Of a stretch of 7,930 bases of DNA, positions 1 to 7,930 are shown in pieces. The position numbers were made by a program, and so were the translations under genes. Position 1 is the first letter of the stretch. The number at the start of each line of letters is the position of its first letter. Origin of the DNA: Betaproteobacteria bacterium (GTDB lineage Bacteria > Pseudomonadota > Gammaproteobacteria > Burkholderiales > SG8-39); NCBI GenBank assembly GCA_029865405.1, contig JAOUGZ010000103.1, positions 1 to 7,930 on the forward strand. The letters run 5' to 3'. The notes under the pieces were generated by a model. That model saw only the letters and a list, made by a program, of their open reading frames with translations. It did no database searches and was not told the DNA's origin.

Positions 1-1323
1 GAGTCCGCCCAGGCCCATCAGGCCCATGGCGGCGATCTGCTCGGCGCCGCGCAGCACCTGCTCGGCGCCGGCCACCTTGCGCTGCACGCCGTAGCCGCCC
101 GACCAGACCAGGCCGGCGATGTGCGCGAGCTGTCCCGCGCCGTAGAGCCACGCCTGCACGGTGGCGAGGCGCGGCGCCGGGCGCGCGCACCCGAGGCGCG
201 GCAGCAGGTGATAGGTGAGGCCCATGAAGGCGAGGGTCACGCCGACGATGGCGCCGTGGTAGTGCGCGGGGATCTTCACGTTGCTGCCGTCGATGGCGAG
301 GCCGATCAGGCCGCCGGCGCCGAACAGCAGGAGCGACGCGCCGAGCGCGGCGCGCAACGGCCGCTCGGCGGGCTCGGCGCGCGGCGCGGTGGCGAGCGCA
401 TACAGCGTCGCCAGGGCGAAAGGCACGATGGCGAGGCCTCCGCCGATGCGCATCAGCCAGGTCTGCAGCCGGTAGTGCTCCACCGAGGTGATGTCGTAGG
501 CAAGGTAGATCACGGGCGTGGCGAACACGGACGCCAGCGCGATGGCGAAGAGCAGCAGCGCGACCCGCGGCGTGAGCGGCGCGCGCGCGCCGCCCGCTTC
601 GGCGAGCGCGAGCCACGCCGCGAACATGAGCAGCGTCCAGGTGAACTGCAGGACGTGCCCGCCGCCCCAGAACAGCACCTCGAAATACGCCTTGCCCTCG
701 AGGCTCGCCGGCAGCGCGGCGTACGACCAGGCGAAGGCGAGCAAGGCCACCGCCGCGGAAACCGAAGCGGCGTTGAGGCCGAAGCGCAGCGCCGCGGCGC
801 CGTCCGGGCGCGTGCCGACGCGCTGGGCAGTGAGCATCGAGCGCGCGACGAGCAGCGCGCAGCCCGCGGCGAAGAGCACGAGGCCGCCCAGGAACACGGG
901 CCCGTCGAGCACCGGCACGTAGTTGCTCATCACCGGCGGCTCGTTGCCGAGGAAGGGCGCCGCGCACATGGCGAGCGTCCCTGCAGCCGCGGTCGCGAGC
1001 CCGGCCCAGCCCAGCCCGAGCAGGCGCGTGCCGCCGTTCAGCGTCCACAGCAGCCCGCCGAACGCGGCGAACCACACCAGCACCGAAAGATCGACGTGCA
1101 CGACCAGCGCGACGCGGAAGAAGTCGGCCACGGCGAACAGGTCCTTCGTATAGGGCGCGCGCGCGAGGACCAGCAGCACCGAGAACACCCCCGCGCCGAC
1201 GAGCGCCGCGATCGCGAGCCACAGCCAGCCGGTGGCGAGGCGCCGCCGCGCGTCGGCGGGCGAGGCGAGGGCGAAGCGCGGCGCGGCCGCGGCGCCGGCC
1301 GCCTCAGCGGAGAGAGAACTCAT
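1..1323 (-). CDS. Divergent heme-copper superfamily subunit I lacking the helix VII CuB histidines, 3'-partial
   Basis: The first 441 residues of a polytopic membrane protein that runs off the window at position 1. I count about eleven membrane helices plus the start of a twelfth, the fold of heme-copper subunit I. Putative ligands: H76 in ALVVHVDLS (helix II, low-spin heme), H223 in GGGHVLQF (helix VI, CuB position), and H354/H356 in IPAHYHG (helix X, the two hemes). Helix VII should carry HH but reads FATPVIYLAYDITS (267-280). Depending on alignment the HH positions are Y276/D277 or L274/A275. The tyrosine position after H223 is F227. It is thus neither a standard A, B or C oxidase nor a cNOR (no conserved metal-site glutamates seen in helix VI). 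It may be one of the lesser-known NO-reductase-like lineages or a heme-only relative. The ATG at 1323 overlaps the upstream cytochrome b gene by 20 nt, implying coupled expression. Confidence 0.8.
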   Translation of the reverse strand, partial: MSSLSAEAAGAAAAPRFALASPADARRRLATGWLWLAIAALVGAGVFSVLLVLARAPYTKDLFAVADFFRVALVVHVDLSVLVWFAAFGGLLWTLNGGTRLLGLGWAGLATAAAGTLAMCAAPFLGNEPPVMSNYVPVLDGPVFLGGLVLFAAGCALLVARSMLTAQRVGTRPDGAAALRFGLNAASVSAAVALLAFAWSYAALPASLEGKAYFEVLFWGGGHVLQFTWTLLMFAAWLALAEAGGARAPLTPRVALLLFAIALASVFATPVIYLAYDITSVEHYRLQTWLMRIGGGLAIVPFALATLYALATAPRAEPAERPLRAALGASLLLFGAGGLIGLAIDGSNVKIPAHYHGAIVGVTLAFMGLTYHLLPRLGCARPAPRLATVQAWLYGAGQLAHIAGLVWSGGYGVQRKVAGAEQVLRGAEQIAAMGLMGLGGL

Positions 1324-2689
1324 GGGCATCGCCTTGTTTTTCATGGTGCACGTTGGGACGCAGGTGCGGGTCGCGCGTGCCGGCGAAGCGCTCGGCGCTG
1401 ATCTCGAGGCCGGTGCGCCAGGCGCACTCGCCGTCGCGGCAGCCGATGGCGCGCACGCGGCGCGCGCCGTTGCGCAGCGCGAATTCGACGAACGACGGCG
1501 GCAGCATGCCGAGGCAGCGCAGCGGGATGCCGCCGGCGTGCGCGCCCTCGCAGCTGAACACCAGCTCGTCCGCCGGCAGCGCGTCCTGCATCTGCCGCCG
1601 CAGGTCATCCACCGTCAGGTCCGGCAGGTCGATGCCGGAGGCGAGCTCGGCGACGCTGCGGAACGGCGTCGCGGACGGGCAGGCGCCGGCGCAGATGCCG
1701 CAGGCCGCGCAGCGCTCGTCGAACACCTGCGCGCGCTTGCCGACCATGATGACCGCTTCGTACGGGCAATCGGCGACGCAGCGCCCGCAGCCGTTGCAGT
1801 TCGCCGGATCGACCACGGCCACGGGCGCGGCCGGCCGGCGCGCGACGTAGGGCAGCGCGACGAGCGCGGCGGTGACCCCGCCTACCGCGAGCCACAGGAA
1901 TCCGGGCGAGGTCGCGTACATGAGCGGGTGCAGGAAGTGCATGAACCAGTCCGTCGGCAGCGCCTGCGGCACCACGGCGGGATCCCAGCGCGCCGCCGAG
2001 GACACCGGCGCGAGGAGCGACAGCGCGAGCAGCGTGGCGACGAGGCCCCAGGCGAGGGCGCGCGGCGCGACGGTCGCGGGCCGCCCCAGGCGCTGCACGT
2101 GCACCCACATGCCGGCGAGCAACGCGAGCGGCAGGCCGATGTGCAGGAACACGAACAGCGAGAACAGGCGGTCGGTGATGCTCTCGGCGCCGAGGAAATT
2201 GCGCGCCATCGGTTCCGCGCCGATGCCCAGCGCGAGCAGCCATTCGGCGGTCGCCTGCGCCGAGAACTGCGCGCGCGCGTCCCACACCAGCCAGTAGCCG
2301 ACGATGCCCGAAGCATAGAGCAGCCACACCAGCGGCACGCCGGAGATCCAGGTGAAGGCGCGAAAGCCGCGGAAGCGCCCGGCGAGGAGCTCGCGCAGGA
2401 TGTGCAGCGCGACGACCACGACGAAGGCGTCGGCGGCATAGCGGTGCATGCTCCTCAGCATGCCGCCGAACCACCATTCCAGCTCGCCGATCGAGTCGTA
2501 GGCGCCGGCGACGCTGGTGTCGAAGCGGATATAGAGGTAGATGCCGCTCGCGGCGAGCACCCAGAACAGCGCGAAGCCGAGCGCGCCGAGGTGCCGCCAC
2601 GACGCCAGAAAATGGGGACAGACCTCATTTTTCCAACGGGAAGAAAAATGAGGTCTGTCCCTATTTTCAGGTGCGAAAGACGAAGCCAC
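1304..2689 (-). CDS. Fusion: di-heme cytochrome b - 2x[4Fe-4S] ferredoxin - MvhD-like domain
   Basis: A 461-residue redox protein. Residues about 31-285 are a cytochrome b core with six membrane helices and heme pairs H82/H96 and H183/H197 (spacing 14 and 14). The PEWY position reads TDWF (246-249). Residues about 293-345 are a bacterial-type ferredoxin with two four-cysteine sets, C298/C301/C304/C308 and C327/C330/C333/C337. Residues about 372-445 resemble the delta subunit of F420-non-reducing hydrogenase (MvhD/FlpD family), with C380, C392 in RCLGMLP and C417/C422 in GCRDGEC; in methanogens this domain passes electrons to heterodisulfide reductase. Electrons could run between cytoplasmic Fe-S partners and membrane hemes (inference; direction unknown). 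The first about 30 residues are unlike its paralogue at 3167-5077 because the palindrome at 2608-2668 is translated in frame. The start is assigned to GTG 2687-2689, the only usual start before helix 1; this start is uncertain. It overlaps the next gene by 20 nt. Confidence 0.88.
   Translation of the reverse strand: MASSFAPENRDRPHFSSRWKNEVCPHFLASWRHLGALGFALFWVLAASGIYLYIRFDTSVAGAYDSIGELEWWFGGMLRSMHRYAADAFVVVVALHILRELLAGRFRGFRAFTWISGVPLVWLLYASGIVGYWLVWDARAQFSAQATAEWLLALGIGAEPMARNFLGAESITDRLFSLFVFLHIGLPLALLAGMWVHVQRLGRPATVAPRALAWGLVATLLALSLLAPVSSAARWDPAVVPQALPTDWFMHFLHPLMYATSPGFLWLAVGGVTAALVALPYVARRPAAPVAVVDPANCNGCGRCVADCPYEAVIMVGKRAQVFDERCAACGICAGACPSATPFRSVAELASGIDLPDLTVDDLRRQMQDALPADELVFSCEGAHAGGIPLRCLGMLPPSFVEFALRNGARRVRAIGCRDGECAWRTGLEISAERFAGTRDPHLRPNVHHEKQGDAHEFSLR
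1332..1335 (-). promoter_or_regulatory. Shine-Dalgarno for the second heme-copper gene
   Basis: AAGG on the minus strand lies 8 nt before the ATG at 1321-1323 and only 2 nt before the in-frame ATG at 1327-1329. Spacing favours the 1323 start. Confidence 0.5.
2608..2668. repeat. 61-bp near-perfect palindrome, REP/MITE-like element
   Basis: Two 25-nt arms (2608-2632 and 2644-2668) are reverse complements with a single mismatch and flank an 11-nt loop (2633-2643). The core GGGGACAGACCTCATTTT and the AT-rich tips differ sharply from the GC-rich surroundings. From general knowledge, palindromes with this GGGACAGACC core are scattered in many proteobacterial genomes and are often found beside REP-associated (Y1/RAYT) transposase genes. 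No transposase is present here. It lies exactly at the junction of two operon genes and could fold into a strong hairpin in the mRNA. No T-tract follows either arm, so I do not call it a terminator. Confidence 0.85.
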
Positions 2690-3170
2690 CCTTGGCCTTC
2701 GAGAAGTCGATGAGGAGCGCGGCGCCGGGCGCGAGCTCGAGCGTCGTTTCGCCGATGAAGTTGAATTCCTCGCCGGGGCCGTCGCGCAGGCGCGCGACGA
2801 TGCGGTGCCGGCCCGCGGCGAGCGGCAGGCGGTGGTACACGGTGGCGTTGCCGTCGCGCTGCACGCCCGAGGGCGCCACCTCGCGCCGCAGCACGATTTC
2901 GCCGTCGACCTCCAGCTCGACGAGCAGCACCGCGCGCTCGCGCGGGCAGTCGAGCGCCGCGCGCATGTTGGGCGCGAGCTTGGCCAGCTCCGCGGCGCTG
3001 CGCTCGCGGCACGCCTCCTTGCGCTCGGCGGCGTGGATGAACGACAGGCGCACCAGGGCCTGGTCCGGCGCGAGCGTGAAGAAGCGCGGCTCGGTGGAGA
3101 AGTAGCCGATCAGCGCCATGAGCGGCACGTAAAGCGCAAGCTGCGCGGCGATGCGCAGGGCTCGCTTCAT
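2667..3170 (-). CDS. Membrane-anchored protein of unknown function, 167 aa
   Basis: I do not recognise this family. The ATG overlaps the upstream stop (ATGA) and has a strong GGAGG site, so it is a real translated gene. Residues 7-24 form one hydrophobic helix after a short basic start (MKRALR), so it is an uncleaved anchor or signal. The rest (about 27-167) should lie outside the membrane, in the periplasm. It looks mixed at first, then mostly beta: alternating hydrophobic strands such as AVLLVELEVDGEIVLRR (80-96) and TTLELAPGAALLIDF (142-156). Two cysteines, C54 and C75, could form a disulfide; there is no heme-binding CXXCH or iron-sulfur motif. It sits between the two cytochrome b fusions, suggesting an accessory or assembly subunit of that complex (inference). 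The final two bases of its TGA stop come from the palindromic element at 2608-2668, so the native C-terminus may have been altered. Confidence 0.8.
   Translation of the reverse strand: MKRALRIAAQLALYVPLMALIGYFSTEPRFFTLAPDQALVRLSFIHAAERKEACRERSAAELAKLAPNMRAALDCPRERAVLLVELEVDGEIVLRREVAPSGVQRDGNATVYHRLPLAAGRHRIVARLRDGPGEEFNFIGETTLELAPGAALLIDFSKAKGGFVFRT
2696..2700 (-). promoter_or_regulatory. Possible Shine-Dalgarno for the read-through GTG start of the second cytochrome b
   Basis: GAAGG on the minus strand lies 6 nt before the GTG at 2687-2689. It is also coding sequence of the 167-aa gene, so the match may be chance. It matters because this GTG is the only conventional start that reads across the palindrome and keeps the first membrane helix. 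Confidence 0.35.
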
Positions 3171-5077
3171 GCGTGGCCTCCGAGGCGCGCGAGCTGCGGC
3201 GCGGGGCGGAAAGCGTCGGCGAAGCAGTCGTCCTGGGCGAGGCCGCGCGCGCGGAATGCCGGGTGCGCGGCCTCCACCATCGCGCTCGAGCCGCAGGCGT
3301 ACACCTGGTGGCCGGCCAGGCTGGGAAAGTCGGCGAGGATGGCTTCGTGCACGAGGCCGGTGCGGCCCTGCCAGCGGTCCTCGGGCGCGGGGTCGGAGAG
3401 CACCGGCACGAAGGTGAAGTTGTCATGCTCGCGCGCCCATTGCTCGGGCAGCTTGGCGAGGTACATGTCCGCGCGCTGCCGCGTGCCCCAATACAGCAGC
3501 ATGCGGCGCCGCAGCCCTTTGGCGAAGGCGTACTCCAGCATGCTCTTCACCGGCGCGAAGCCGGTCGAGCCGGCGACGAAGATGATCGGCTTGTCGGTGT
3601 CCTCGCGCAGGAAGAAGGCGCCGAGCGGTCCCTCGAAGCGCAGCCTGTCGCCGGCGCGCATCCCCTCGAACACGTGGCCGGTGTAGCGCCCGCCCGGGAT
3701 GTGCCGGATGTGCAGCTCGATGCGCGCGCTCTGCTGCGGCGCAGTGGCGAAGGAAAAGCTGCGCCGCGCCCCGTCCTCGAGCAGCACGTTGATGTACTGC
3801 CCGGCGTAGAACGAGATGGGCTCACCGCCTTCGATGGCGAGGATCACGCGCATCACGTCGGGGGCGAGCCGCTCGAGGCTTTCCACCGTGGCGCTCCACT
3901 CGCGCGGGCGGATGCCGCCAAGGGCTTTCGCCGGCAGGTACTCGATCTCGATGTCGCCGCGCGGCGTGGCGCAGCAGGTGAGGATCTTGCCGGCGTCGCG
4001 CTCGGCCCGCGGCAGCGCCTCCTGCTGGTAGGCGCCGTAATCGACTTCGCCGTAGGCGAGCGTCGCCTTGCACTGCCCGCAGCCGCCATGGCGGCACTCG
4101 AACGGCAGAACGACGCCTTCGCGCAGCGCGGCATCAAGGATCGTGTCGCCTGCACGCACCGAGACGATGCGATTGTCGGGGCGTATCAGCATATGGTGCT
4201 CGGCCGCTTTCTTCTTCGGCGGCAGCCAGGGCAGCAGGAGAAACAGCACCGTGGCGCCGCCGAGGAGCAGCCAGACTTCGCCCGGCGAGGTGCGGTACAG
4301 CAGCGCGTACACCGGCAGGTAGAACCAGTCGAACGCGACGCTGCCGGCCGCGGTGGCGAGATCGGCACGCGGCTGGCTGACGGCGGGCTTGACGAGCGAG
4401 AGCACGACCAGTGCCGCGGTCAGCGTGAGCGCCACCGGCAGCGGCGGCGCGGTGCGCGCCTGCGGCACGCGCTGCGTGTGCACCCACAGGACGGCGAGCA
4501 CGAGCAGCGGCACACCGATGTGGATGAAGGACAGCAGCGAGAACAGGCGGTCGTTCAGGTTCTCGGCAAAGATGAAGTTGCGCACCAGCGCGCCCTGGAA
4601 CACCGGCAGCCAGTCGAGCCACTCGGCGGTCGCGACGACCACGAACTGCGAGAGGCGATCCCAGGGCAGCATGTAGCCGTTGATTCCGGAGGCGTACACC
4701 AGCCACAGCAGCACCAGGCCGCTCACCCAAGAAAACCAGCGGAACCCGCGATAGCGGTCGAAGCACCAGTGACGCGCGAGGTGCAGCGCCATCACCAGCA
4801 CCACGCCGTCGGAGGCATAACGGTGGACCGAGCGCAGCACGCCGCCTGCATACGGCTGGTCGAGCGTCAGCGCCTGCACCGAGTCGTAAGCGCCGCCGAC
4901 GCTGGTCTCGAACAGCACGTACAGGTACAGCCCGCTCGCCACCACCAGCCACATCAGGTAGTAGGCGATCGGGCCAAGGTAGTACAGCGGGTTCAGCCGG
5001 TCGCCGAAGGCAAGGTTGAACAGCGCCTCTACCCTGAGGAAAAACCACTGTCCGATCAGGTGTATACGGTGAATCAC
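3167..5077 (-). CDS. Fusion: di-heme cytochrome b - [2Fe-2S] ferredoxin - FAD/NAD(P)H reductase
   Basis: A 636-residue three-part redox protein. Residues 1-290 are a bc-type cytochrome b core: an amphipathic N-terminus, about six membrane helices, and heme pairs H85/H99 and H186/H200, each spaced 14 apart as in bc1 cytochrome b. Where classical cytochrome b has PEWY, it has FDWFY (249-253). Residues about 295-385 are a plant-type ferredoxin with cluster ligands C328, C333, C336 and C368 (C369 is an alternative). Residues about 392-490 are a ferredoxin-reductase FAD domain (RSFS at 439-442, GPLGAFF at 483-489). Residues about 495-620 are the NAD(P)-binding domain (GSTGFAPVKSM at 503-513, YACGSS at 593-598). 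Likely role (inference): electrons pass from cytoplasmic NAD(P)H through FAD and [2Fe-2S] to the membrane hemes, then to quinone or a partner. The GTG start has AGGA upstream. The stop overlaps the next start as ATGA. It is paralogous to the cytochrome b at 1304-2689. Confidence 0.92.
   Translation of the reverse strand: MIHRIHLIGQWFFLRVEALFNLAFGDRLNPLYYLGPIAYYLMWLVVASGLYLYVLFETSVGGAYDSVQALTLDQPYAGGVLRSVHRYASDGVVLVMALHLARHWCFDRYRGFRWFSWVSGLVLLWLVYASGINGYMLPWDRLSQFVVVATAEWLDWLPVFQGALVRNFIFAENLNDRLFSLLSFIHIGVPLLVLAVLWVHTQRVPQARTAPPLPVALTLTAALVVLSLVKPAVSQPRADLATAAGSVAFDWFYLPVYALLYRTSPGEVWLLLGGATVLFLLLPWLPPKKKAAEHHMLIRPDNRIVSVRAGDTILDAALREGVVLPFECRHGGCGQCKATLAYGEVDYGAYQQEALPRAERDAGKILTCCATPRGDIEIEYLPAKALGGIRPREWSATVESLERLAPDVMRVILAIEGGEPISFYAGQYINVLLEDGARRSFSFATAPQQSARIELHIRHIPGGRYTGHVFEGMRAGDRLRFEGPLGAFFLREDTDKPIIFVAGSTGFAPVKSMLEYAFAKGLRRRMLLYWGTRQRADMYLAKLPEQWAREHDNFTFVPVLSDPAPEDRWQGRTGLVHEAILADFPSLAGHQVYACGSSAMVEAAHPAFRARGLAQDDCFADAFRPAPQLARLGGHA
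3177..3181 (-). promoter_or_regulatory. Strong Shine-Dalgarno for the 167-aa gene
   Basis: GGAGG on the minus strand lies 6 nt before the ATG at 3168-3170, inside the last codons of the cytochrome b-reductase gene. It fixes the start of the 167-aa protein. Confidence 0.75.
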
Positions 5078-5121: not shown

Positions 5122-5904
5122 TTAAATATTCGACGGTCGCCGGCGCCGCCGCCACTCGACGACCAGGAACGCCAGGATGCCGAGGATGATGCTCGCGCCC
5201 ACGAGCAGCTCGGCGACGATCACGTAGTTCACCCGGTAGCGCCCCGCCACGGGGTCGTACACGGTGCACAGCAGCTTCACCTGCTCGAAAAAGGCCTGCA
5301 GGTTGCCCTGCGGCACGGGCTTGTTCTGCGCGAGCTGAAGCAGCGGCCCGACGAACAGCGGCACCTCGAACTGATCGCCATATACCTGCCGGTAGATGCG
5401 GCCGCTGGCGTCGACGATGCTCGCCTGCAGCAGGTGGTCGAACCCGGAGGCGGTCGACTCGTAGCGAAAGCCGAAATCGGCGACGAGTTGCGGCAGCGTT
5501 TGCGCCTCGGGCGAGAGGAACAGCCAGTTGCGCGACTCCACTGCGTGCTTGCGCCTGAACTCCTTCATCGCGCCCGGGGTGTCGAACGGCAGGTTGAAGC
5601 CGATGGTGGCGACGCGAAACGTCCCCGGCCCGAGCGTGCGCTCGGCCTCGGCGATCGCTTTGGCGAGGAACTGCGTGCTCGCCGGGCAGACCTGGAAGCA
5701 GCCGGTGTAGACGAAATTCACCACCAGCGGCTTGCCGCGCAGCTCGGCGAGCCGCACGGTGCGCCCCTCGGTGTCGCGCAGCGTGTAGTCGCCGATCGGG
5801 CGGCCGATCGCGGCCTGGCTCTCGCGCAGCGCGAGCTTCTCGTCGAAGGCGTGCGCGCCGAGCGCCGCGGCGAGCAGCAGCGCGCTAAGCGAGAAGCGCA
5901 GCAT
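5122..5904 (-). CDS. senC: SCO1/SenC family copper chaperone with C-terminal membrane anchor
   Basis: Thioredoxin-fold protein that delivers copper or reduces thiols during assembly of copper sites in heme-copper enzymes, acting on the periplasmic face. It has 260 residues from the ATG at 5902-5904: a signal peptide MLRFSLSALLLAAALGAHA (1-19, likely cut at AHA), a SCO core (about 30-200), copper ligands C69 and C73 in TGCFQVCP and H157 in GFDHLL. A hydrophobic segment (about 226-249) is followed by WRRRRRP, which would place the tail in the cytoplasm by the positive-inside rule. Most SCO proteins are anchored at the N-terminus; here a cleavable signal plus C-terminal anchor is predicted. The frame is open upstream to 6123, but that part is antisense-like coding shadow of ctaB and would hide the signal peptide. 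It overlaps ctaB by 20 nt, so coupled translation is likely. Linkage fits copper delivery to CuB (or CuA, if the unseen subunit II has it). Confidence 0.93.
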   Translation of the reverse strand: MLRFSLSALLLAAALGAHAFDEKLALRESQAAIGRPIGDYTLRDTEGRTVRLAELRGKPLVVNFVYTGCFQVCPASTQFLAKAIAEAERTLGPGTFRVATIGFNLPFDTPGAMKEFRRKHAVESRNWLFLSPEAQTLPQLVADFGFRYESTASGFDHLLQASIVDASGRIYRQVYGDQFEVPLFVGPLLQLAQNKPVPQGNLQAFFEQVKLLCTVYDPVAGRYRVNYVIVAELLVGASIILGILAFLVVEWRRRRRPSNI

Positions 5905-6739
5905 CGAGCATGGCGCCCGCGAGCACCGCGCCCAGCTGCGCGAGCGAGGCGAGGAACGCGGCGCGCGCGGCGCCGCGTCCGGGGCGGCGCACGAGCGCCC
6001 GGCAGCGCAGCAGGAAAAGAATCCCGCCGGCTGCGGCAAACGAGAGGTAGATCCAGCCCAGGCCGAAGGCCGCGGGCACGAGCGAGGCGCCGACCAGGAG
6101 GGCTGCGCTGGCGAAGATGGCACGCGCCGCGCGCGCGTCGCCCACCACCACCGGCAGCATCGGCACGCGCGCCTTCGCGTAATCCTCGCGGCAGACGATG
6201 GCGAGGCTCCAGAAATGCGGCGGCGTCCACAGAAAGAGCACCACGGCGAGCGCGAGCGCCTCGGGGCCTGGCGCGGGCGACACCGCGGCCGCGCCGGCGA
6301 GCACCGCGAAGCTCCCGGCGAGTCCCCCGACCACGATGTTCCACCACGTGCGCCGCTTCAGCCACACCGTGTAGACCACGCCGTAGGTGAACGCGCCGAG
6401 GAACACGTACAGCGCGGCGAGCGGGTTCGCCGCCACGGCGGCGGCGAGCACCGAAAGCGCGAGCATCGCGCCGATCAGCCACAGCCACGCCGGCCCGTGC
6501 TTCAGCGCCCCGGTGACGAACGGGCGGTTCCTCGTGCGGCCCATGCGCGCGTCGAGATCGCGCTCGACGTACTGGTTGAACGCGCCTGCGGCTGCCGAGG
6601 CGACCAGCACCGCGAGGATCAGCATCGCACCGGCGGCGGCACCGGGGCCGGCGCCGGACTCCACCGCCATGCCGGCCGCGGCGGCGACGGCGATGGCGAC
6701 GCCGATCCTGAGCTTGAAGAGATTGAGAACCTGTCTCAC
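5885..6739 (-). CDS. ctaB: Protoheme IX farnesyltransferase (heme O synthase)
   Basis: Integral membrane UbiA-family prenyltransferase that adds a farnesyl group to heme b to make heme O, the precursor of heme A, for heme-copper enzymes. The 284-residue length is normal for the family. The first substrate/Mg site is NQYVERDLDARMGRTRNRP (N55, E59, D63, R68-R72); glutamate at the first acidic position is common in this family. The second is WTPPHFWSLAI (171-181) followed by EDYAKARVPMLPVV (185-198). YTVWLKRRTWWN (123-134) is also typical. About eight to nine hydrophobic helices are visible. The start is GTG at 6737-6739, sharing GTGA with the stop of the upstream oxidase gene. There is no good Shine-Dalgarno, so translation is probably coupled. 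The open frame extends upstream, but that part lies under the oxidase gene and is Arg/Gly-rich shadow. Location implies that the neighbouring enzyme uses heme O or A. Confidence 0.95.
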   Translation of the reverse strand: MRQVLNLFKLRIGVAIAVAAAAGMAVESGAGPGAAAGAMLILAVLVASAAAGAFNQYVERDLDARMGRTRNRPFVTGALKHGPAWLWLIGAMLALSVLAAAVAANPLAALYVFLGAFTYGVVYTVWLKRRTWWNIVVGGLAGSFAVLAGAAAVSPAPGPEALALAVVLFLWTPPHFWSLAIVCREDYAKARVPMLPVVVGDARAARAIFASAALLVGASLVPAAFGLGWIYLSFAAAGGILFLLRCRALVRRPGRGAARAAFLASLAQLGAVLAGAMLDAALLA

Positions 6740-7930
6740 TTCAGCGGCCAGACCGTCGACAGGTACTTCCAGTTGATGAAGTAGTACAGGACGAAGGAGG
6801 CGAGGAACACCATCGCCAGGGCGAAGGTGCCCGGCGCCACCAGGCCGCCCGCGCCCACGTTCGGGTGGTGCCCCGCGATCGCCGCCGCCACGGGCTTGGG
6901 CGCCGGCGCGATGCCGTCCTTCGCGCGCACGTGCTTGAAGCCCGGCGTCTCGATCTTCTTGCCGAGGAACACCGAGTACACCGTGATCAGCAGATACATG
7001 CCGCCGCCGACGATCGCGATGAGGCCGGTGATGCCGGCGAGCGCCATCATCAGCCACGCGGCGCCGGGGAACTCATGCGCGAACGCGTTGCCGGCGAAGC
7101 CGATGTCCCAGTGCCGGCGAGGCACGCCGAGCGTGCCCGCGCCCATCAGGAACAGCGACACGCCCATCATCGACAGGCCGAACACGTACGGCTGCCACTT
7201 CGCCATGCCCGGGAAGGCGAGCTCGCGGCGGAACAGCACCGGGATGAGGAAGTAGGTCAGGCCCATGAAGGCGAGCGTGGTGCCGACCACCACCGTGGCG
7301 TGGAAGTGCCCCGGCACGTAGAGCGTGTTGTGGATGATCAGGTTCAACTGCTCGGTGCCCATCATCACGCCCGAGATGCCACCGAGGAAGCCGAAGCCGA
7401 TGAGCGACATGAACATCGAGGAGAACGCCGGGTTGCCCCAGGGGGCCTTCCTCAGCCACTCGAACAGGCCGTGGTTGAAGCCTTTCTGGCGCTGCGCCAC
7501 CTCGATCGAGCCCGGAACCGTGAGGCCGTGCACCATCGAGGCGAGCACCGCCAGGTACATGGCGTAGCTGGTGTTGAAGATCTTCCAGTGCGAGGTCAGG
7601 CCCGGGTCGGCGAGCAGGTGGTGCGCGCTCGCCAGCTGCAGGAAGAGGATATACAGCAGGAACGCGGTGCGGCTCACTTTCTCCGAGAGCGGCTTGGCGC
7701 CGAACACGATCGCCGCCACCGCGTACCACACGGCGACGTGCGCGCTGACGTTGATCTGCTGCGACGAGTGGCCGAAGGCCCACCACACCGTGCGGTACAT
7801 GAGCGAGTCGATGTGCTCGACCAGGCCCACCGACCACAGGAACGTCGGGATGAGGATGATGGCGCCCGCGGCAATGGTGAACACGGCGATGATGCCCGCG
7901 GTGATGGCGCCGAAGGTCACCAGCGGCACC
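6736..7930 (-). CDS. B-family (ba3-like) heme-copper oxidoreductase subunit I, 5'-partial; NO-reductase-like active site
   Basis: Catalytic membrane subunit of a terminal heme-copper enzyme. The gene enters from beyond position 7930; 397 residues are visible, starting before helix VI, so helices I to about V are missing. The valine (GTG) at 7927-7929 is probably internal. Numbering from it: CuB ligand H54 in a GHSSQQ motif (helix VI), CuB dyad H103/H104 in SAHHLLADPG (helix VII), and heme ligands H208/H210 in VPGHFH (helix X). HHxxADPG and NVPRR-like (GVPRRHWD) signatures match Thermus ba3-type subunit I. The residue four after H54, tyrosine in ba3 enzymes (HPIVY), is Q58, and the cbb3-type helix VII tyrosine position is leucine. 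A hydrophilic Ala/Pro/His linker (about 323-365) leads to an extra C-terminal membrane helix (367-388). Family knowledge: B-family members without this tyrosine are proposed NO reductases (eNOR, sNOR/NorS). Oxidase activity is less likely but not excluded. The stop overlaps the ctaB start. Confidence 0.9.
   Translation of the reverse strand, partial: VPLVTFGAITAGIIAVFTIAAGAIILIPTFLWSVGLVEHIDSLMYRTVWWAFGHSSQQINVSAHVAVWYAVAAIVFGAKPLSEKVSRTAFLLYILFLQLASAHHLLADPGLTSHWKIFNTSYAMYLAVLASMVHGLTVPGSIEVAQRQKGFNHGLFEWLRKAPWGNPAFSSMFMSLIGFGFLGGISGVMMGTEQLNLIIHNTLYVPGHFHATVVVGTTLAFMGLTYFLIPVLFRRELAFPGMAKWQPYVFGLSMMGVSLFLMGAGTLGVPRRHWDIGFAGNAFAHEFPGAAWLMMALAGITGLIAIVGGGMYLLITVYSVFLGKKIETPGFKHVRAKDGIAPAPKPVAAAIAGHHPNVGAGGLVAPGTFALAMVFLASFVLYYFINWKYLSTVWPLK

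Follow-up and report, generated by a model that had tools for sequence, protein, structure and literature searches.

In enzymes of the heme-copper superfamily the copper site, CuB, is formed by three histidines, one on helix VI and two on helix VII. The window analysed here is a stretch of 7,930 nucleotides (contig JAOUGZ010000103.1 of assembly GCA_029865405.1, a Betaproteobacteria bacterium), and its minus-strand frame 1323-1, 441 residues long and still open 3′ at the window edge, encodes a subunit I homologue that we call HCOL. The heme His positions of the B-family oxygen reductases of Thermus (ba3) and Aquifex (PDB 1ehk, 7deg) align with those of HCOL, which is without their helix VII CuB ligands and their active-site Tyr. 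With subunit I of eNOR, a B-family-related nitric oxide (NO) reductase, HCOL shares the fold, a Gln three residues after the helix VI His (HxxQ), the gene cluster of this window and a sister position in the tree. However, eNOR carries two adjacent histidines (HH) on helix VII, with Gln in place of the active-site Tyr, whereas HCOL and its relatives have I/Y, A/Y, L/H, P/F and similar pairs and, for the Tyr, mostly Phe. Compared with the cNOR and qNOR enzymes, from which it is far apart in the tree, HCOL has neither HH nor Glu at the Tyr position. Genomic linkage to the heme A synthase CtaA/COX15, with the neighbors CyoE and Sco, suggests a common pathway, although HCOL differs from CtaA/COX15 in family, COX1 being its only Pfam match, and the passages of PMC9145763 consulted here mention no assembly role for an HCOL-like protein. 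No CuB-less heme-copper clade was found in the titles and abstract openings of the literature searched; a survey of NO reductase diversity (PNAS 2024, e2316422121) that lies outside this coverage may describe the clade.

HCOL scores 55.2 bits against the heme-copper profile PF00115 (COX1) in the Pfam scan (cut-off 34.8) and has the subunit I fold; its close homologues are mostly ~450–475 residues long (468 in P0002, for example). An earlier note on this DNA had assigned H76, H354 and H356 as heme ligands and H223 as one CuB-type His, and had described the helix VII pair as lost and the active-site Tyr as replaced by F227. All of this is confirmed. The three heme histidines of a heme-copper oxidase or reductase are present and invariant across relatives, while H223 is the only CuB histidine left. 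Residues 269–283 (window 475–519) read TPVIYLAYDITSVEH, no HH occurs anywhere in the window HCOL, and I272/Y273 occupy the columns of the helix VII pair. F227 stands where A- and B-family oxygen reductases carry the helix VI Tyr, where eNOR has Gln (the criterion given in PMC8756737) and where cNOR and qNOR have Glu. HCOL would thus bind a low-spin heme by H76/H354 and a second heme by H356, and we consider it very probable that it holds two hemes and no CuB. The lack of a CuB ligand set favors the heme-only site that the earlier note had offered as one option. H223 may have been retained in a different role, probably that of a distal ligand to the second heme or of a residue in its pocket, which could be bis-His or heme-only.

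Relatives were drawn from a species-level genome collection in which 256 stretches fitted a search pattern and 239 encode relatives; the best 80 of the 239 were kept, among which the closest full-length locus is L001 (86% identity), L008 (89%) being cut. L111 duplicates L077 from the same genome and is left in the counts. In the window and these 80 loci H223, Q226, F227, H354 and H356 are found in 81/81 and H76 in 80/80 (one locus is cut). The larger alignment of 131 sequences, which adds 50 frames from Pseudomonadota genomes, has H223, H354, Y355, H356, R415 and K416 in 131/131 and H76 and Q226 in 130/130. In helix VII no position is conserved at 97% or more among the 131, and position 227 also varies. 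A control covered 60 PF00115 loci in 19 genomes, of which all but L106 and L206 yielded a frame (58 in total); the frames were chosen for having HH or HxH and are therefore slightly biased toward HH. A helix VII-type HH was present in 53/53 frames outside the HCOL clade and in none of five HCOL members (L108, L109, L110, L207, L208). The very divergent outlier L155 (L155:8679-10031; 54.6 bits, branch 3.21) contains an HH of ambiguous register: MAFFT aligns it with the helix VII HH columns, and its T-x-x-M anchor puts it at 283/284, a position at which HH is seen in 11 further rows. If the MAFFT register is right, L155 is not CuB-less and may keep the CuB pair or belong outside the HCOL clade. 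L080 has HH at 276/277. That HCOL is a decayed or misassembled gene without function is hardly credible: the copper ligands and Tyr of the superfamily are indeed lost, but the heme ligands are invariant in the 131 aligned sequences and the gene cluster is conserved.

The helix VII register was obtained by several routes. Profile–profile comparison of HCOL with eNOR (probability 98.6) and with a Thermus ba3/Aquifex/eNOR profile (probability 99.6), as well as three MAFFT modes with 33 HCOL rows and A, B, C, cNOR and eNOR proteins, all place the HH columns on I272/Y273. The alignments agree with the earlier note that HH is missing but not with its two registers, Y276/D277 (from VPF, against cNOR) and L274/A275 (from TPV, against ba3), each of which had been set by VPF or TPV alone. 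The HCOL–ba3 alignment has no gaps between the helix VI His and D277, the counterpart of an ordinary ADPG-loop Asp in the CuB-bearing ba3 and eNOR. In an AlphaFold2 (AF2) model, which contains no heme (predicted local distance difference test score, pLDDT, 88), helix VII spans 252–275 and helix VIII starts at 281, so that I272/Y273 fall inside helix VII, Y276 and D277 belong to the VII–VIII loop and H283 lies where helix VIII begins. phmmer and hmmsearch of HCOL against PDB sequences matched no heme-copper relative, and the register therefore rests on the family-to-family alignments. The best Foldseek matches of the model are Thermus ba3, although VIA-align and Foldseek cannot discriminate families A, B, C and cNOR for HCOL.

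These results bear on the suggestion, also made in the earlier note, that a second metal (Cu or Fe) is held by H223 with D277 and H283. In the close clade D277 (63/81), E282 (79/81) and H283 (76/81) are well kept. Beyond it, D277 is found in 3/23 sequences of clade i, 3/6 of ii, 2/14 of m and 2/5 of the other eNOR-type sequences, and H283 in 5/23, 0/6, 0/14 and 2/5, respectively (the clade labels e, i, ii, m and x were set by us before the tree, in which e and ii are not single clades). Given also the loop and helix VIII positions of the two residues and the ADPG identity of D277, we regard such a site as very improbable. Position 273 is Tyr in 80/81 close relatives, His in 20/23 of clade i and Phe in 5/6 of clade ii; in clade i this His seems to be left over from the second CuB His. 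Because F, H or L occurs elsewhere, Y273 was rejected as a newly fixed ligand. Phe is found at 273 in L113, L115 and L116, which carry adjoining ORF167 and cytb-Fd genes (see Table 1).

In a tree of 56 proteins the 33 HCOL rows group together as a single clade (100/100) on a long stem, sister to eNOR (98/97) and not inside it, with two B-family oxidases branching next to HCOL + eNOR; the tree program warns of long branches, and this deep placement is less certain than the support values. HCOL is by descent a member of the heme-copper superfamily, near eNOR and the B family. Its clade would have split from an eNOR-like B-family ancestor and then lost the helix VII His pair, a reuse of the heme-copper fold after copper loss. 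Since by site it lacks the full set of CuB histidines, the Tyr and the eNOR Gln, HCOL should be classed neither as an oxidase nor as an NO reductase. The 120 listed homologues, where named by their source, are called hypothetical protein, cytochrome c oxidase subunit I or cbb3-type subunit I, and metagenome counts of oxidases and NO reductases may thus include proteins without the copper site.

HCOL is found with eNOR and also without it. Subunit I of eNOR is present in 50/51 of the loci (among the 80) that have at least 8 kb upstream, the exception being L003. L007 (69% identical) has HCOL and cytb-Fd beside an A-type CoxA with Sco-, CoxB- and CyoE-like genes, and no eNOR within 7.9 kb upstream (an assignment made partly by eye). 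Among 398 Pseudomonadota genomes (HCOL at E<=1e-100, eNOR at E<=1e-60), 51 have HCOL and 30 have eNOR, and HCOL occurs in 28/30 eNOR genomes vs 23/368 others (Fisher 1e-26). HCOL could accordingly be an electron-transfer subunit of an eNOR supercomplex, in which electrons would pass from two membrane cytochrome b fusions of the cluster, cytb-FNR and cytb-Fd, through the HCOL hemes to eNOR and drive NO reduction with NAD(P)H. The conserved redox cofactor sites of both fusions are consistent with this. On the other hand, 23/51 HCOL genomes lack eNOR, on which ground eNOR as the sole role of HCOL was rejected; L003 and L007 carry HCOL and cytb-Fd with no eNOR nearby; HCOL and eNOR are on different contigs in 23/28 genomes that have both, these genomes being fragmented; and eNOR already has a CuA-motif subunit II of its own. 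We think a supercomplex unlikely.

CtaA-family genes accompany HCOL in more than one setting. Counted by profile scan, they occur in 41/42 loci covered on both sides (L048 has none, L006 a weak match only) and in 57/80 of all loci, and in 17 loci, three of them with weak matches, such a gene is the next one after HCOL on its strand. In L044 the CtaA-like gene (11362-12354; PF02628, 41.9 bits, cut-off 29.9) overlaps the HCOL stop by 4 bp. Matches of 42–61 bits in L001, L006, L023 and L057 may be spurious; L001 and L057 have a classic CtaA too, which in L001 is upstream of HCOL (325 bits). CtaA is present in 276 of the 398 genomes, in 50/51 with HCOL vs 226/347 others (Fisher 6e-8). The two genes are <=0.5 kb apart in at least 22/51 genomes (19 by listed coordinates, from which the CtaA position of G022, G026 and G117 is absent, plus three by locus), 12 of the 22 being without eNOR; the gap is 3.4 kb in G098 and 11.4 kb in G066.

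Because CtaA-family genes are common to eNOR clusters and non-eNOR oxidase loci, and the heme-handling CcsA/ResB appear in a third setting, we tentatively favor a reading of HCOL as a diheme, CuB-less membrane redox or heme-handling partner in the making of heme-copper-type enzymes, and not a terminal reductase. HCOL would partner a heme-A-synthase-family protein (CtaA or CtaA-like) while such enzymes, here eNOR, are made, and electrons would arrive from NAD(P)H or ferredoxin through cytb-FNR and the cytb-[4Fe-4S] protein. Yeast Cox15 works with ferredoxin and its NADH-fed reductase (PMC7140478), which cytb-FNR resembles. A more specific version, somewhat unlikely as it stands, is that the CuB-less branch, having diverged from the eNOR lineage, serves heme-A-synthase-family proteins as a dedicated redox partner and passes electrons to the heme under modification or insertion, or takes them from it. 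In eNOR clusters the CuB-less oxidase fold would then join a Glu-to-Arg CtaA fold in a new heme-handling machine, by which heme-copper NO reductases could be assembled at low oxygen. Should the CtaA link prove functional, it would give a handle on the electron source or sink in bacterial heme a synthesis and on the maturation of heme-copper NO reductases in denitrifiers.

Several observations weigh against the favored reading. The CtaA-family gene of the 80 loci is mostly of a divergent form (45 divergent only, 9 both, 3 classic only, 23 none seen). In 33/33 aligned rows of this form the Glu of ExxHR is Arg, and of the four His that five classic CtaA proteins share without exception, three are kept and one is replaced by Asn. 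The divergent partner may therefore not make heme a; a catalytic Glu is described for CtaA (PMC7140478) and by our own mapping is the ExxHR Glu. This family, travelling with the eNOR/HCOL clusters (L001–L080), is a putative second repurposed paralogue. Classic CtaA requires O2 (PMC9145763), which is awkward for a denitrification cluster. One HCOL clade adjoins multiheme cytochrome c, ResB and CcsA genes, with CcsA in 14/16 loci (L141–L156) and no CtaA in the stretch seen around them. Adjacency of HCOL and CtaA was not seen in 29/51 genomes, G086 has HCOL without CtaA, and the co-occurrence tests ignore relatedness. A CuA-motif subunit II adjoins HCOL in three loci, where HCOL could belong to an enzyme of its own. 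Finally, the proposed function is drawn from sequence and gene context.

The CuA-motif genes are pertinent to a further alternative, in which HCOL would act in catalysis or sensing and its heme-only site would take NO, O2 or some other small molecule. H223 and Q226 would then form the distal pocket, and in some clades HCOL would have a CuA subunit II of its own. H223 and Q226 are kept despite the loss of the CuB ligands. The gene order on one strand is CuA-motif subunit II, HCOL, CtaA in L178 and L180, and HCOL followed by subunit II in L145, where Pfam names COX2 (it does not in L178). An NnrS gene (L044:12425-13630; PF05940, 368 bits) comes after the CtaA-like gene behind HCOL. However, helices VI and VII contain no invariant acid, Tyr or second metal ligand, position 227 and helix VII vary, and the CtaA link is left unexplained. 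This alternative seems to us improbable, and the partnership with heme-A-synthase-family proteins remains our preferred reading.

The described window genes (Table 1) are all on the minus strand, in the reading order eNOR subunit I, CyoE, Sco, cytb-FNR, ORF167, cytb-Fd and HCOL, which suggests one co-transcribed operon. The eNOR assignment follows from the Gln at the active-site Tyr position and from the CuA-motif subunit II directly upstream in relatives, present in those inspected (L001, L010, L049, L077, L164; Pfam COX2 23.9 bits in L001).

Table 1. Coordinates of genes and key HCOL residues in the window
Feature	Position	Strand	Remarks
HCOL, CuB-less heme-copper-fold subunit I homologue	1..1323	-	441 aa seen, 3′ end cut at window edge; PF00115
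H354-Y355-H356 codons, heme ligands, helix X	256..264	-	
HCOL helix VII end and loop, residues 269-283	475..519	-	without HH
I272/Y273 codons	505..510	-	aligned to helix VII HH of ba3, eNOR, A, C, cNOR
H223 codon, helix VI	655..657	-	sole retained CuB-type His
H76 codon, helix II	1096..1098	-	low-spin heme ligand
cytb-Fd, membrane cytochrome b fused to two [4Fe-4S] sites and FlpD-like domain	1304..2689	-	
ORF167, small protein	2667..3170	-	167 aa
cytb-FNR, membrane cytochrome b fused to [2Fe-2S] ferredoxin and FAD/NAD(P) reductase	3167..5077	-	
Sco/SenC protein	5122..5904	-	CxxxC 61/61, His 63/63; start inferred
CyoE/CtaB heme o synthase	5885..6760	-	TIGR01473 249.7 bits, cut-off 210.3; start approximate
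eNOR-type subunit I	6736..7929	-	5′ end cut; HH present, Gln at active-site Tyr position (GHSSQQ)

ORF167 matched no Pfam or NCBIfam family. Its C54 and C75 are conserved in 76/76 loci, H46 in 71/76 and H122 in 73/76, and a copy is found just upstream of HCOL in many related loci, with two copies in some. In cytb-Fd the four His and the cluster Cys are conserved. The cytochrome b halves of cytb-Fd and cytb-FNR look like paralogues (~40% identity in cross matches, four conserved His each), and both match, below cut-off, the ExtP family of selenite/tellurite reduction operons.

Among the relatives, a cytochrome d1 (NirS-like) gene (L049:16618-18384) and a Crp-family regulator (19222-20337) downstream of an eNOR/HCOL cluster point to denitrification. 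The CuB-less homologues of L141–L144, L146–L154 and L156, most of them beside CcsA, ResB and MtrC-like multiheme genes, are reminiscent of extracellular electron transfer. An unusual C-like heme-copper subunit I of ~590 residues with the motifs GHNVLG, GGHHLIGG and HAH (L094, L095, L097, L101) was found in 4/5 genomes examined; two of these branch deeply beside cbb3 in the tree, and the G004 copy lies ~2.6 kb after HCOL. Within the window, a 29-nucleotide inverted repeat (2605-2671; 93% complementary, 9-nucleotide gap) is translated in frame at the very beginning of cytb-Fd and resembles a mobile palindromic element. The cytb-Fd alignments of L001, L019 and L021 start after it (residue 28–32), and L003 has a similar stretch.
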